Source: Lentisphaeria bacterium (lineage in GTDB: Bacteria > Verrucomicrobiota > Lentisphaeria > Victivallales > Victivallaceae). From it: DNA of 64,000 nucleotides. Where the stretch lies: NCBI GenBank assembly GCA_017507125.1, contig JAFWBQ010000130.1:1-64000 (forward strand). Reading direction: 5' to 3'. The translations under genes and the position numbers were made by a program. Shown here in pieces: positions 35,209 through 40,943 of the stretch. Position 1 is the first letter of the stretch. Every line of letters starts with the position of its first letter. The notes beneath the pieces are model-generated. The model made no database searches. It had not been told where the DNA came from and saw only the letters and a program-made list of their open reading frames with translations.

Positions 35209-37245
35209 TTATTTCAATACAGCTTCAACGATTTTTTTCCGCACCGGTTCCATATACATATTGCCCAGATGACCGCCTCTTGAAAACCAGAACATTTTTT
35301 TGCCGAATGTCCTGTCGAGCCAGTGTTTGTGCTCCGGGGCAAGGAGGGGATCGTCCCACGCATGGATGACCCGGATCCCTGAGATCCGCTTCAGATCCCT
35401 GAAGTGGCGCATATCTCCTTTGCGGTAGAGATATTCAAGAGATTTTCCGGGGAACTGAGGCGCAACGAAGTTACGGGCATATTCATTGAATCCCACTTTG
35501 TCGATCTCCTGATAAAGTGCATTCCTGCGCCACCAGCTGTAAGGTGTCTTCAAGGGGATCTTGAACCTTTCGGCACTGGCATTGTGAAGGATGTGGCGCA
35601 GAGGCAGACGGAAATAGAGTCCCGCCACAAAACGCGCCGCCTCTTCGTCAGGACGGAAAAGTGCCATCTGCGAGGTCATGCCGGGAACAGTGTCAAGTGC
35701 AGAAGCGGTCACAACTCTTCCGGCGGTCTCGGTCAGCACATCAAAGGTCTTTTTCTCACTCCATGAAGCCCCTGACGCGGCGAGAGTGTCAGCCACTTTT
35801 GAAGCATATTCAAGAGAAACAGGGGGATTGATCGCCACATAACGCTCAAAGTGCAGCCGGGGCGAGATCCGCTCCATCTCAGCGATCTTGAGGGTATAAA
35901 GACCTCCGAAACTGTATCCGGCAAGGATCAATTGAGGCAGCTCCTGACAAAGCTCCTCCTCTTCCACTTTCTGCAAGGCTTTTTCCAGAACACTTCTCAG
36001 GATCTGAGCATCGAACTCAACGTTGCCCGGAAGTTTCCCGGAACGGGATTCCTCCATAAAGGAGCCGGAAAAGGCGCAATCCATGGTCAGCACGGCACAG
36101 TTTTCTTTGTTGAGCGCTTCTGCAAGTGCCATGACCGATGTGCCGTTATGGGTCCCTCCCACGCCGGGAAGCAGCACCACAAGACGGGGTTCGGGCTGAA
36201 CTTTACAGGGATCGGAGTAATCGATTTTTTCCGCTTTCCAGAAACCGCAGGTCACCTCTCCGCCGTTGGGGAGTTTCACATAAAGGCGCTTCATGCGGTT
36301 GGCAAAGTCGCTGTTGAAAATGGAAAGGGGCATGTACCACCAGTCCTCACGCGCCTCCGGACGCCACAGAACAACTTGCAGTGTGGAAAGAACAGGGGAA
36401 AACTCCCCGAACTCCGGCAGATCGTGCCAATTGCCCCGGATCCCCCGGGGCGCCTTGAAGGGAGGTGTCTTTTTCACCTTGCCGTTTGCAGGAGCAAAAA
36501 GTTCCTGCTGCCGGTCTCCCAACCGGTAGAACCAGAGCCGGTTCTGAAGCTCCCGCCGCAGCACCATGCCCTCCCGGTAACTTTTGTAGGGATCAGCGGA
36601 GTCTGCCACCAGATTGTGATAAAGTGCCTGTGCCACAATGGCCTGATTCAGCATCACCACACTGGAGTAAGGTATATAAGTTTTGGCATCAAAGGCATAA
36701 TCAAAGACGAATCCCGCCGTATCACGCACATTCACCCGGGGCAGAAAGGGAAGCATAAAGGTACACCCCGGGTCGATCCCCCAGGTATGGAAGGTCTGTC
36801 CGAAGTCGGAGTCAGTGGAGTAAAGATCGAACCAGTGCAGCCCCACGTCAAAGAGTCCGGCGATCCCCAGAGTGGAATTGGCAAGAAAGCGCAGAAATTC
36901 ATGACATGAGCCCTTCCACTCCGCCCGGAGCAGGGCACTGACGAAGCGGGCGGGAAACTCCAGATTGACACAAAGATTGTTGACACACTTGATCACCGGC
37001 CGCGGCAGAATGGAGGTATACACGCGGCCGATCCAGTCCACCGGATACTCCATAAGGAGATGCTGTACCGAAAACATGGCACGGTTAAAGGGTTCAATGG
37101 GATCCTCCCCTGCAGCACGGTTTTCAAGTTCGGTCAGAGTCCACGGTGCGTTCCTGGGAGTTTCTTTCAAAGGTGTCTGACAGCCGCACAGAAGAAACAG
37201 AGCACAGCAGCACACACAAAGATCCAACAGCAGATATTTTTTCAT
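35209..37245 (-). CDS. MlaA-family lipoprotein fused to alpha/beta hydrolase
   Basis: 678 residues from ATG 37245 (GGAAAG upstream; the hydrophobic start fits). Lipoprotein signal with lipobox LCGC, lipid-bearing Cys22. Residues ~45-270 match the MlaA/VacJ outer-membrane lipoprotein that helps keep phospholipids out of the outer leaflet: DPIEPFNRAMFSVQ, RFLANSTLGIAGLFD, DFGQTFHTWGID, PFLPRVNVRD. Residues ~375-678 are an alpha/beta hydrolase: VVLLPGVGGTHNG oxyanion strand, nucleophile elbow GYSFGG (Ser near 444), and later IHAWDDPLLAPEH and RGGHLG giving candidate Asp and His. A lipase acting on phospholipids is a reasonable inference. Own promoter; no other mla gene seen. Confidence 0.85.
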   Translation of the reverse strand: MKKYLLLDLCVCCCALFLLCGCQTPLKETPRNAPWTLTELENRAAGEDPIEPFNRAMFSVQHLLMEYPVDWIGRVYTSILPRPVIKCVNNLCVNLEFPARFVSALLRAEWKGSCHEFLRFLANSTLGIAGLFDVGLHWFDLYSTDSDFGQTFHTWGIDPGCTFMLPFLPRVNVRDTAGFVFDYAFDAKTYIPYSSVVMLNQAIVAQALYHNLVADSADPYKSYREGMVLRRELQNRLWFYRLGDRQQELFAPANGKVKKTPPFKAPRGIRGNWHDLPEFGEFSPVLSTLQVVLWRPEAREDWWYMPLSIFNSDFANRMKRLYVKLPNGGEVTCGFWKAEKIDYSDPCKVQPEPRLVVLLPGVGGTHNGTSVMALAEALNKENCAVLTMDCAFSGSFMEESRSGKLPGNVEFDAQILRSVLEKALQKVEEEELCQELPQLILAGYSFGGLYTLKIAEMERISPRLHFERYVAINPPVSLEYASKVADTLAASGASWSEKKTFDVLTETAGRVVTASALDTVPGMTSQMALFRPDEEAARFVAGLYFRLPLRHILHNASAERFKIPLKTPYSWWRRNALYQEIDKVGFNEYARNFVAPQFPGKSLEYLYRKGDMRHFRDLKRISGIRVIHAWDDPLLAPEHKHWLDRTFGKKMFWFSRGGHLGNMYMEPVRKKIVEAVLK

Positions 37246-37282: not shown

Positions 37283-37311
37283 AATATAAATCCATTCAAA
37301 GAGAAAATCAA
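37283..37311 (-). promoter_or_regulatory. Promoter of the MlaA-hydrolase gene
   Basis: TTGATT at 37306-37311, spacer 17, TATATT at 37283-37288, about 38 bp before the ATG. Confidence 0.55.
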
Positions 37312-37329
37312 GTTCTCCTCAAATAAAAA

Positions 37330-37357
37330 CTGCACAAAAGGGGGGACTTTTGTGCAG
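37330..37357 (-). terminator. Terminator after the 1181-residue secreted protein gene
   Basis: Perfect 11 bp arms (CTGCACAAAAG / CTTTTGTGCAG) with a short loop, then TTTTTAT on the minus strand. Confidence 0.85.
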
Positions 37358-37397
37358 TATGTTTTTGTTGCCGGCGCTCATCACACCGCCATGTTTT

Positions 37398-40300
37398 TCA
37401 CTTGACCCGGATCACAGCTTTGAAAGAGTGTTTCCCTCCGGGAGCAATGGTCACAGGTTTGTAGAAAGGCTCACAGGTAGCGGCAAAAAGGCTGGGGGTG
37501 TCCCAGACCGCCACACCGCCGAATTCAGCTGCGGGAAGCAGTGTCACATCCATACCCATGCCGTTGGGAGATTTGAAGTTCAGCACATTGCCGCTGATGG
37601 AAACGGAAGGGGACTTCACGATAAAGATGCGTCTGATCTTTGCTTCAGAAGCGGCGTCAATATCTTTTTTGTAGAAGCTGTACCCATGGGGACGGCTGAT
37701 TTTTTTATCTTTGATCTCCATGAACCCTCCGTTTTTGTTGTCCCATGCACAGGGCATGAAGTACCAGCGGAATCCCACATTGTCCATAGACATCTCAGAG
37801 GGGTTGTGGAGAAGGGTCTCAACGGTGATGTTTTTCAGATCTCTGCTGAAGGTGATGACCCGTTTGATCCGCAGTCCGGGGAGCGCCGGATAGGTGCGTC
37901 CGGAGGTGACACACTCGGCGGCGATACGGAGTCCCTCCGCCGTCACCTCCTGCTCCGTCACCCGGTAGGGGTTAAAGGACTGCATCCCGTGGGGGCCGGG
38001 ATTCCAGAAACAGGAGAGAGAGAAATTGTTATGAACCTGCTCAACGCCGTTGATCTTCAGAGAGTTGATAACGGTTCCTCTGGGATCGATGAGAGCGCTG
38101 CTCTTTCCGGCGGTGATCTCAAGGTAATTCTTACCTTTGGGATCAATGACCTTGCAGGTGAATCCGCCCTTTGAAAAACTCTTCCACTCGCCGAAATCAT
38201 TTTCGCTCATAAGTGCCCGGTCGCGGGCGGCTTCTGCATCGGCGGCGGCCTTGTTGGCTTTGTCAAGATTCTTTTTCTCTTTCAGAAGATCAGCTTCGGT
38301 CATCTGAGTGAGAGCAGGCAGAGTAGTGCATTCAGCGATCTCAAAGAAGACCCAGCGCAGAGCCCCTGCGTGGAGCAGGACGCCTGCACCCAATTCCCTG
38401 CCGGTAAAGGCCCTGCCCTGAGATTTGGTGAACTGTCTGTTATAGGGGATCTCAACGATGGAGTAGCGCCGATCCGCCTTGAGTCCGGGGATCTGAAGTT
38501 TGAAGATCACATCTCCCTTTTCCCAGAAGTTGCCCACTGCGGCAAGATATTTCTGACCTTTGGCAAAGACGACAGTCTGAAGGATATCGCTCTTTTTCAC
38601 ATCTGCCATCATACGGGGAGAAATATTGAGCACGGGAGCGGGGAAAGGTGTTACCGGGGTGACTTTGGCGCCCTTGATCTGTTTCCCCGTCATGACCATA
38701 TCTTCGGTAAGGGCGATCAGGTGTGAACTGCGTCCCAGTTCACGCCAGAAACGGTGGTCATAGCCCCGGGGGAAGAAGTAGAGCTGAGAGGCATGGAATC
38801 CGGCAAGGAAGGCGCTGATCTGATCCATCGCCATACCTTCTGGCTGTCCCAGAGCGGTGGTATTCACCTGATTGCCGTGGGGCATGGCAAGAAGTCTGGC
38901 ACGGCTGCCGGGGAGCTTTCCGGTGTAATCAAGATAAGCTCTCCGGATCACCTCCCAGTAACGCAGATAAGCCGCCTTGGAGTAGACGTAAGGACGCTCA
39001 CCGATAAACCAGATGTAGGGTCCCCAGACATTGAGCCATTTGGTTTTATCCGCGTAGGCATAAGGCGAAAATTCGCCCTGAGTGGCGTTGTATTCGGCAT
39101 AATCCAGGATCTGATCGGTCCCCACTTCGGGACACATACCCACCTCTTTGCCTCCTGCCGCCATGATCTCTTTGTGGAGCGTCATGATCATCTGAGCGTG
39201 CTGCCACCCTCTGAATTTAATGGCGGTTTCGCGGTACTTTTTGCCCAGCTGGAGTTCAGCGGGCCACACCTTGTCGATCTGAGCGGCGGGGATCTTCGCA
39301 TATTTGGCGAACTCCTTTTTACAGGTATCGCAGAAGCATCCCATATTGCGGAAGCTGTAAGGCTCCCAGTTGGGGGTGAAACCGTCAAGTCCTTTGACGG
39401 CCTTTTTGATGTAAGGCACGACCACTTCGTTGTAGTAGGGCGTCTTCAGATAGACAGCGGCAGGACAGGTGGCATAGATGCCGTGGTTGCTCACGGCCCG
39501 TCCCTGAAGATCACGGAAGATGGCGTAGGCAGGTTTCTGATTATTGGGGACTCTGCCGATACGGTATCCGTTGGCGATGGCCCCGGATTCAGCTGTGACA
39601 AATTTGACGCCCTTCTTTTTGAAAAGCAGAGCATCCTCTTCAGGAATGGAGGCGGTGATCCAGCGGGTTCCGGTCTTTTTGACCACAAAGTCGGCAAAGG
39701 CCTCTCTTGCGGCAGGGAAAGAGCGGAACTGGATATCAGCGGAAACAGAGCTGAATCCGGGCATGAAGATCTTGCCGGACGGCACAGGAGCGAGAGCTTC
39801 AGCCATGCGAAGCGTAAAATCCTCTCTGCTGCTCAGCTGTTTGCCTTTTTCAGAAACATACATGGCACAGCGCCACTCTTTTCCGGCCTTCTCTTTACTG
39901 CGGAGCATGATGCAGGGAACATGCCAGCCGGTGAAGGAGTTGCTGCTGCGGATAATGGCAGGTATACTGTAATTGAAGGGGATCTCCCAGAGCTTATACT
40001 CCTGACCGCCTTTTTTGAAAGTTTTTGAGCTCATCCTGCCGGTAAAGAATCCGTTGGTTCCCAGGATCTCGACCTGTGCGGGCAGCTCCAGATTCAAAGT
40101 AAGAGCGCGGTGTTTGAAGTGACCTTTGGGCAAATTGTTCCGCAGACGCATCCCCATGATCCCGGGATCACCTGAAGCCAACACAAAGACATTGTCCAGC
40201 ATCTTCATGGGAGTCATTTCAATGGTGACAGGCAATGTGGGCGCGCTCTCTTTGACCAGAGCGATGTCACGGACAAGGCTTCTGCCGCAGCCGTCGCTGC

Positions 40301-40943
40301 GGAAAGAGATGCTCAGTGCCCGGGTCCCTGCGGGAACGGTGAGCACTGCGGAATAGTTGGTCCAAGTGGGAACAGGAGCATAATGGAGCACTTCATAAGG
40401 ACGGGTGTTCTTCCCCTTTTCAATGGCGGAATAGTAGTAAACAAGGATACCCTGCATGAAGCCGCCGGTGCCGATCTTCTGACTGCGGTATGTGAAAGAA
40501 AGTTTGTAGCGTCCGCCCAGAGCATCGGGCAGAGCGACACGCTGTTCAGCGGAAATGTAAAAAGAGGCCGCCTTGGCGCCCATGAGCTTTTCAAGTTCAG
40601 CGGGGCGGTGGAGGTCAAGCACTTTTTTACCGTCAACGGTGGAAATACGGCTTTCGCTGATCTTGCAAGCCTGTTTCCAGAATTTCTTGCGGTTGTCATC
40701 GCCGAACATCCACCTGCCTTTGCACCATCCGTTGAGTTTGTTCCGGGAAGGGACAAAGTCCTGAGAAAAGTCGCCGTTTTTGATCAGATTCTTACCGGCG
40801 GGAACCGCTTTTACTGCGAAACGCTCAGCGGAGATCTTTTCCATGGGGAATGTAACGCCACCGCGGTGGAACTCTTTATCTGCGCCGCAAAGTCCGGTAC
40901 AGAAAAGCGCCGCGCTCAACACTGCTGTCAGAAGATGTTTCAT
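37398..40943 (-). CDS. Large secreted glycosidase-like protein
   Basis: 1181 residues with a signal peptide (KHLLTAVLSAALFCTGLCGA). An N-terminal jelly-roll-like CBM (~50-230, beginning NLIKNGDFSQDF) precedes a barrel-like region (~420-880) with GLDGFTPNWEPYSF, the Cys motif CFCDTC near 534, and VGMCPEVGTDQI. Trp/Glu/Asp-rich segments resemble GH42- or DUF4838-like barrels. A short coiled coil (~925-960, Lys/Ala/Glu) and a C-terminal beta domain follow. Reaction unknown. Follows the DUF1805 gene by 21 bp; only a weak ribosome site is seen. Confidence 0.7.
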   Translation of the reverse strand: MKHLLTAVLSAALFCTGLCGADKEFHRGGVTFPMEKISAERFAVKAVPAGKNLIKNGDFSQDFVPSRNKLNGWCKGRWMFGDDNRKKFWKQACKISESRISTVDGKKVLDLHRPAELEKLMGAKAASFYISAEQRVALPDALGGRYKLSFTYRSQKIGTGGFMQGILVYYYSAIEKGKNTRPYEVLHYAPVPTWTNYSAVLTVPAGTRALSISFRSDGCGRSLVRDIALVKESAPTLPVTIEMTPMKMLDNVFVLASGDPGIMGMRLRNNLPKGHFKHRALTLNLELPAQVEILGTNGFFTGRMSSKTFKKGGQEYKLWEIPFNYSIPAIIRSSNSFTGWHVPCIMLRSKEKAGKEWRCAMYVSEKGKQLSSREDFTLRMAEALAPVPSGKIFMPGFSSVSADIQFRSFPAAREAFADFVVKKTGTRWITASIPEEDALLFKKKGVKFVTAESGAIANGYRIGRVPNNQKPAYAIFRDLQGRAVSNHGIYATCPAAVYLKTPYYNEVVVPYIKKAVKGLDGFTPNWEPYSFRNMGCFCDTCKKEFAKYAKIPAAQIDKVWPAELQLGKKYRETAIKFRGWQHAQMIMTLHKEIMAAGGKEVGMCPEVGTDQILDYAEYNATQGEFSPYAYADKTKWLNVWGPYIWFIGERPYVYSKAAYLRYWEVIRRAYLDYTGKLPGSRARLLAMPHGNQVNTTALGQPEGMAMDQISAFLAGFHASQLYFFPRGYDHRFWRELGRSSHLIALTEDMVMTGKQIKGAKVTPVTPFPAPVLNISPRMMADVKKSDILQTVVFAKGQKYLAAVGNFWEKGDVIFKLQIPGLKADRRYSIVEIPYNRQFTKSQGRAFTGRELGAGVLLHAGALRWVFFEIAECTTLPALTQMTEADLLKEKKNLDKANKAAADAEAARDRALMSENDFGEWKSFSKGGFTCKVIDPKGKNYLEITAGKSSALIDPRGTVINSLKINGVEQVHNNFSLSCFWNPGPHGMQSFNPYRVTEQEVTAEGLRIAAECVTSGRTYPALPGLRIKRVITFSRDLKNITVETLLHNPSEMSMDNVGFRWYFMPCAWDNKNGGFMEIKDKKISRPHGYSFYKKDIDAASEAKIRRIFIVKSPSVSISGNVLNFKSPNGMGMDVTLLPAAEFGGVAVWDTPSLFAATCEPFYKPVTIAPGGKHSFKAVIRVK

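Follow-up and report, generated by a model that had tools for sequence, protein, structure and literature searches.

A probable one-polypeptide MlaZ-MlaY system for outer-membrane phospholipid in Lentisphaeria

Could a single outer-membrane lipoprotein both capture misplaced phospholipid and hydrolyse it, and if so, which known component would it replace? This question was raised by positions 35209-37245 of the window (the whole stretch of 64,000 nucleotides analysed here), where an initial annotation had proposed an MlaA lipoprotein fused to an alpha/beta hydrolase, standing alone with its own promoter and replacing a separate phospholipase such as PldA.

Domain architecture and predicted active site

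The coordinates of the proposed fusion proved right, and the strand, on which the annotation was silent, is minus; the plus frame over 35209-37245 is full of stops. The ATG at 37245 is backed by an identical start in loci L002 and L003. The gene and the protein features used below are as follows.

37245-35209, minus strand: mlaZY fusion gene, 678 codons (678 aa), ATG at 37245, stop ending at 35209
37180..37245, minus strand: lipoprotein signal peptide with lipobox LCGC, Cys22 and Gln at +2, read from the translation
36550..37107, minus strand: MlaA/VacJ domain, residues 47-232 (Pfam PF04333, E = 4.3e-41)
36346..36549, minus strand: linker, residues 233-300, of variable length among relatives in the alignment
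35236..36345, minus strand: alpha/beta hydrolase domain of the MlaY type, from about residue 301 to 670 (Pfam PF12697 and homology to the MlaY candidate)
36157..36165, minus strand: PGVGG turn, likely the end of the oxyanion-hole strand, with G361 and G363 invariant in the 32-relative alignment (G361 in 47/47)
35911..35913, minus strand: predicted catalytic Ser445 of GYSFG, in 47/47, aligned with MlaY Ser187
35350..35352, minus strand: predicted catalytic Asp632, the second Asp of HAWDD, in 46/47, aligned with MlaY Asp388
35269..35271, minus strand: predicted catalytic His659 of GGHLG, in 47/47, aligned with MlaY His415

The lipobox ending in Cys22 is present in the sequence as LCGC, and its GC column is retained in most members of an alignment of 32 full-length relatives. 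Under the +2 rule of E. coli, Gln at this position leads to outer-membrane sorting, and the fusion protein would be expected to take the same route. The MlaA/VacJ signatures earlier placed at residues ~45-270 were confirmed by the PF04333 match, which scored 141 bits against a curated cut-off of 25, and by a profile of the 32 relatives, whose N-terminal half matched the solved MlaA structures 5nuq, 5nuo and 8i8r at E-values of 1e-28 to 7e-27. The MlaA signature residues DPxExxNR, G149, W155, N172, R174 and D175 are invariant in the 32 aligned fused relatives.

For the C-terminal half, Pfam and NCBIfam yielded generic alpha/beta hydrolase names only and PDB matches were weak; Abhydrolase_6 (PF12697) matched residues 356-558 at 30.3 bits, barely over its cut-off of 26.3. 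AlphaFold models from a four-sequence alignment were too poor for geometry (mean pLDDT of 33.5 for the full chain and 43.6 for the hydrolase alone). The nucleophile elbow near residue 444 and the Asp (HAWDDP) and His (RGGHLG) suggested from the sequence are intact as S445, D632 and H659, and all three are invariant across the 32 full-length relatives, which share 28-89% identity. Only ten columns are invariant among 44 hydrolase domains taken from across the phylum, and the three catalytic residues are among them. The sole exception in 47 sequences is a Glu at the Asp632 position in Fusobacterium. That substitution would fit a hydrolase half that has lost catalysis and instead binds lipid or acts as a scaffold, a reading we regard as very improbable given that Ser and His are kept in 47/47 sequences and Asp in 46/47, at the published MlaY positions. 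Relatives with 28-89% identity have the same complete architecture, so the fusion is not a chance event.

The surroundings of the gene include three further features.

37283..37311, minus strand: sigma70-like promoter TTGATT-17-TATATT, 37 bases ahead of the ATG, a consensus match only
37329..37358, minus strand: 12-bp hairpin with T-run seen in the sequence, likely a terminator between the fusion gene and the upstream gene
37398-40943, minus strand: upstream 1181-aa ORF of the secreted type, with a signal peptide; Pfam gave nothing at E 0.001

A promoter of its own is plausible for the fusion gene from the hairpin and T-run (37329-37358) and the sigma70-like site (37311-37283), both being consensus matches only. 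Of the loci fetched, those of the closest relatives were the only ones to match the 1181-aa protein (67-93% identity). Downstream, tig, clpP and clpX follow on the same strand; a functional meaning of this synteny was weighed and set aside, because matches to trigger factor were confined to the closest relatives.

Kinship with MlaY and history of the fusion

A plasmid search recovered the same hydrolase in Fusobacterium and, adjoining a VacJ gene, in Skermanella. The Skermanella protein in turn matched a hydrolase gene of P. aeruginosa whose end lies 4 bases ahead of a VacJ gene. The P. aeruginosa hydrolase carries Ser, Asp and His at 187, 388 and 415, in the same columns as S445, D632 and H659. 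The active site of MlaY has been given as Ser187, His415 and Asp388 (Guest et al. 2023, as quoted in PMC11977310). We took the P. aeruginosa protein to be MlaY because the VacJ gene adjoins it and the triad numbering is exact. The family hydrolase profile matched this candidate at E = 2.8e-73 over 330/364 positions, in a search space of two proteins. According to PMC11131202 and PMC12569750, P. aeruginosa MlaZ (PA3239), an MlaA homologue, hands phospholipid that is out of place to MlaY (PA3238), a lipase, for degradation, and an E. coli mutant in pldA is reported to be rescued by the two proteins together (PMC11131202, PMC11977310 and PMC12569750). Because the hydrolase is homologous to MlaY over its full length and shares its triad columns, we read the window gene as an MlaZ-MlaY fusion, its product most likely being a one-polypeptide MlaZ-MlaY.

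The P. aeruginosa system (PA3238-PA3239) likewise consists of an MlaA-family protein and a full-length homologous hydrolase with the same triad positions, encoded together. It is made of two proteins with the gene order mlaY then mlaZ, whereas the window encodes one chain in the order MlaZ-MlaY with the lipobox on the MlaA half; P. aeruginosa also keeps MlaA-MlaC-MlaBDEF, while the window's genome has no detected MlaC. Canonical MlaA (VacJ) shares PF04333 and the lipobox with the fusion but has about 250 aa, no hydrolase and MlaC as its partner, against 678 aa with a hydrolase here. PldA (OMPLA) would share with the fusion the expected outcome, destruction of outer-leaflet phospholipid, but it is an outer-membrane beta-barrel of unrelated fold. 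The chimeric Mla-Pqi system Mpc of Brucella is a transport system that, like the fusion, departs from the standard Mla set, and its abstract makes no mention of a hydrolase (PMC12436622).

In 10 relatives, and likewise in Skermanella, Fusobacterium and Pseudomonas, hydrolase and MlaA are encoded by two neighbouring genes. The hydrolases of the 10 adjacent pairs have N-terminal hydrophobic signal-like segments of their own, and the MlaA of split-gene relatives often has no lipobox. In Fusobacterium the hydrolase is unannotated and the MlaA ORF overlaps its 3' end; in Fusobacterium vincentii (L153 5803-7876) this unannotated overlapping pair runs from MlaY-type hydrolase to MlaA. The Skermanella plasmids (L151 5216-12159, L152 5246-12174) carry, in a row, RND efflux genes, a hypothetical gene, the MlaY-type hydrolase, the VacJ lipoprotein and a protein with a TamB domain; MlaYZ may be connected there with phospholipid traffic of the TamB type.

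Quick trees of the MlaA and hydrolase halves agree on two separate groups of fused proteins. In both, adjacent-gene pairs lie beside the window's fused group, and the Pseudomonas-Skermanella-Fusobacterium pairs form a group of their own. The well-supported branches call for a minimum of two switches between the fused and the unfused state, so fusion either happened at least two times or was reversed once. It is old and widespread. Both halves of the window protein sit far from the Pseudomonas pair, in separate clades in both trees, and the substrate could for that reason have shifted. One could suppose that the MlaA half is mainly an outer-membrane anchor and that the hydrolase acts on lipid A, on acyl chains of lipoproteins or on dietary or host lipid esters. 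This would suit the distance of the hydrolase from Pseudomonas MlaY, the purely generic Abhydrolase families in Pfam and NCBIfam, and the gut habitat of the close relatives, which belong to the Lentisphaeria and include two from animal cecum. The invariant MlaA signature residues, however, exceed what an anchor needs, the hydrolase is paired with MlaA wherever it was found (three phyla), and phospholipid degradation is what has been reported for the homologous pair; we consider such a substrate quite unlikely.

Distribution relative to MlaC, PldA and the Mla transporter

A domain-architecture search, a check put forward with the initial annotation, found the MlaA-hydrolase fusion to be widespread in the phylum. 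The search covered MlaA, MlaC, PldA and MlaE in 388 genomes of the phylum, and the MlaA loci were then searched with MlaA and hydrolase profiles. Matches were present in 60/78 genomes of the window's family, nearly all of them to both halves in one frame. Three close loci came from a single-protein scan of genome contigs, and relatives of the fusion were absent from the viral contigs searched. Two genomes each carry two different MlaA-hydrolase fusions (G173 at L095 and L096, G270 at L103 and L104).

Among the 153 MlaA-positive genomes, which share ancestry and are not 153 independent observations, 95 had the hydrolase only, 44 had MlaC only, one had both and 13 were unassigned; a Fisher p value takes no account of that ancestry and was given no weight. 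The hydrolase carriers, fused or with an adjacent gene, thus number 96, namely the 95 without MlaC and genome G220. The 13 comprise genomes without listed coordinates (G137, G158, G161, G166, G179, G218, G333, G348 and G357), two whose loci end at contig edges (G304 and G385), and G336 and G306, in which MlaA is present and neither MlaC nor the hydrolase was found; G306 has PldA, and the stand-alone MlaA of G336 lies at L131 2675-3472. Wherever a short MlaA without MlaC lay well inside a contig, a hydrolase gene adjoined it in all examples examined except G336 and G306. Conversely, a profile search found a full-length hydrolase in 1/47 MlaC-positive genomes. This one is again G220, which has two MlaAs (L084 and L140), a short one beside MlaC and another fused to the hydrolase; P. 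aeruginosa likewise carries both systems, but as separate genes. Neither MlaC (PF05494) nor a second or stand-alone MlaA was found in the window's genome (87% complete), and, G220 apart, no MlaC turned up in any other genome with the fusion or an adjacent pair.

The replacement of PldA, as originally suggested, is compatible with these counts, PldA being found in 0/96 hydrolase carriers, but few genomes of the phylum have PldA at all (28/388). For this reason MlaC is the better-supported replaced component, and fused MlaYZ, spread over the class, would stand in for MlaC there.

The locus had also been described as lacking mlaBCDEF. This is true of the locus itself, and MlaC was not found genome-wide, but an mlaE-mlaF-mlaD operon lies on another contig of the same genome (C32; L036 6329-8891), directly after ffh and one unknown gene. 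Its MlaD has 333 aa, and neither mlaC nor mlaB was found near it. The earlier framing missed this operon as well as the MlaYZ precedent. MlaE is near-universal in the phylum (360/388 genomes).

The fusion might work with MlaEFD, trimming lipid or handing it to a long MlaD able to extend to the outer membrane with no MlaC in between. The presence of mlaE-F-D and the 333-aa MlaD in the genome speak for this, as does the proposal for other diderms of an elongated MlaD that spans the periplasm (PMC10665443); the same study, however, found no beta-barrel in the MlaD of the PVC group, and the operon is on a different contig from the fusion. MlaE and MlaD are moreover both absent from eleven carriers, eight of them from the window's genus, and four genomes of the same genus show the converse, with MlaE and MlaD present and the fusion absent; these are draft genomes, 71-97% complete, and the pattern recurs in several at 89-97%. 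A partnership with MlaEFD is unlikely on this evidence. Because of the eleven carriers and the four converse genomes, the fusion seems to have no need of the Mla ABC transporter (INDEPENDENCE from the transporter). Neither is the fusion essential, since some genomes of the same genus do without it.

LpxC was found in 182/198 genomes of the class, including the window's, which makes a lipid A-containing outer membrane likely and a fair premise. Pfam gave no detection of LptD (PF04453) in G000, G048, G040, G035, G031, G056, G032, G034, G057, G029, G058, G059 and G046, where LpxC is present; LptD may have diverged strongly there, or LPS may leave through a different exporter.

Proposed route and its meaning for the class

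We propose that the MlaA (MlaZ) domain, held in the outer membrane by its lipid anchor, would take phospholipid that has strayed into the outer leaflet and deliver it through the MlaA pore to the periplasmic side, to the tethered hydrolase. There the MlaY-type serine hydrolase (S445-D632-H659) would deacylate it at the periplasmic face, and asymmetry would be restored by destroying the lipid on the spot instead of handing it over to MlaC/MlaFEDB. The capture step draws on what is known of MlaA and the hydrolysis step on MlaYZ. The original idea that one lipoprotein may capture and hydrolyse phospholipid is strongly supported by homology to MlaY with its triad and by the MlaZ-MlaY hand-over. 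We put the probability at roughly 0.8 that this is a natural one-polypeptide MlaZ-MlaY that would capture outer-leaflet phospholipid, deacylate it and serve in asymmetry; sorting to the outer membrane, the hand-over of lipid within the fusion, the phospholipid substrate and the asymmetry role are the parts that we infer. The failure of Pfam to detect LptD in the genus and the lack of the fusion in some genomes of the same genus were counted against the mechanism.

In the literature, MlaYZ appears as a Pseudomonas system alongside the Mla pathway (PMC11131202, PMC11977310 and PMC12569750), and we found no mention of a fused MlaYZ in the literature searched, which did not cover the founding MlaYZ paper (Guest et al. 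2023). Here, the principal MlaA-type system of an entire bacterial class is MlaYZ, as a fusion or a pair, and it is nearly exclusive with MlaC. We give even odds to the broader proposal that a large lipid-A-making group clears misplaced phospholipid purely by one-lipoprotein capture and hydrolysis, replacing MlaC transport and dispensing with both MlaC and the Mla ABC transporter, and that the MlaZ-MlaY fusion arose at least twice. As a single chain, the protein would fix MlaZ and MlaY at 1:1, which suits it to structural and reconstitution work on the hand-over from MlaA pore to lipase, and its distribution makes testable the question of whether outer-membrane asymmetry may be maintained through hydrolysis alone.
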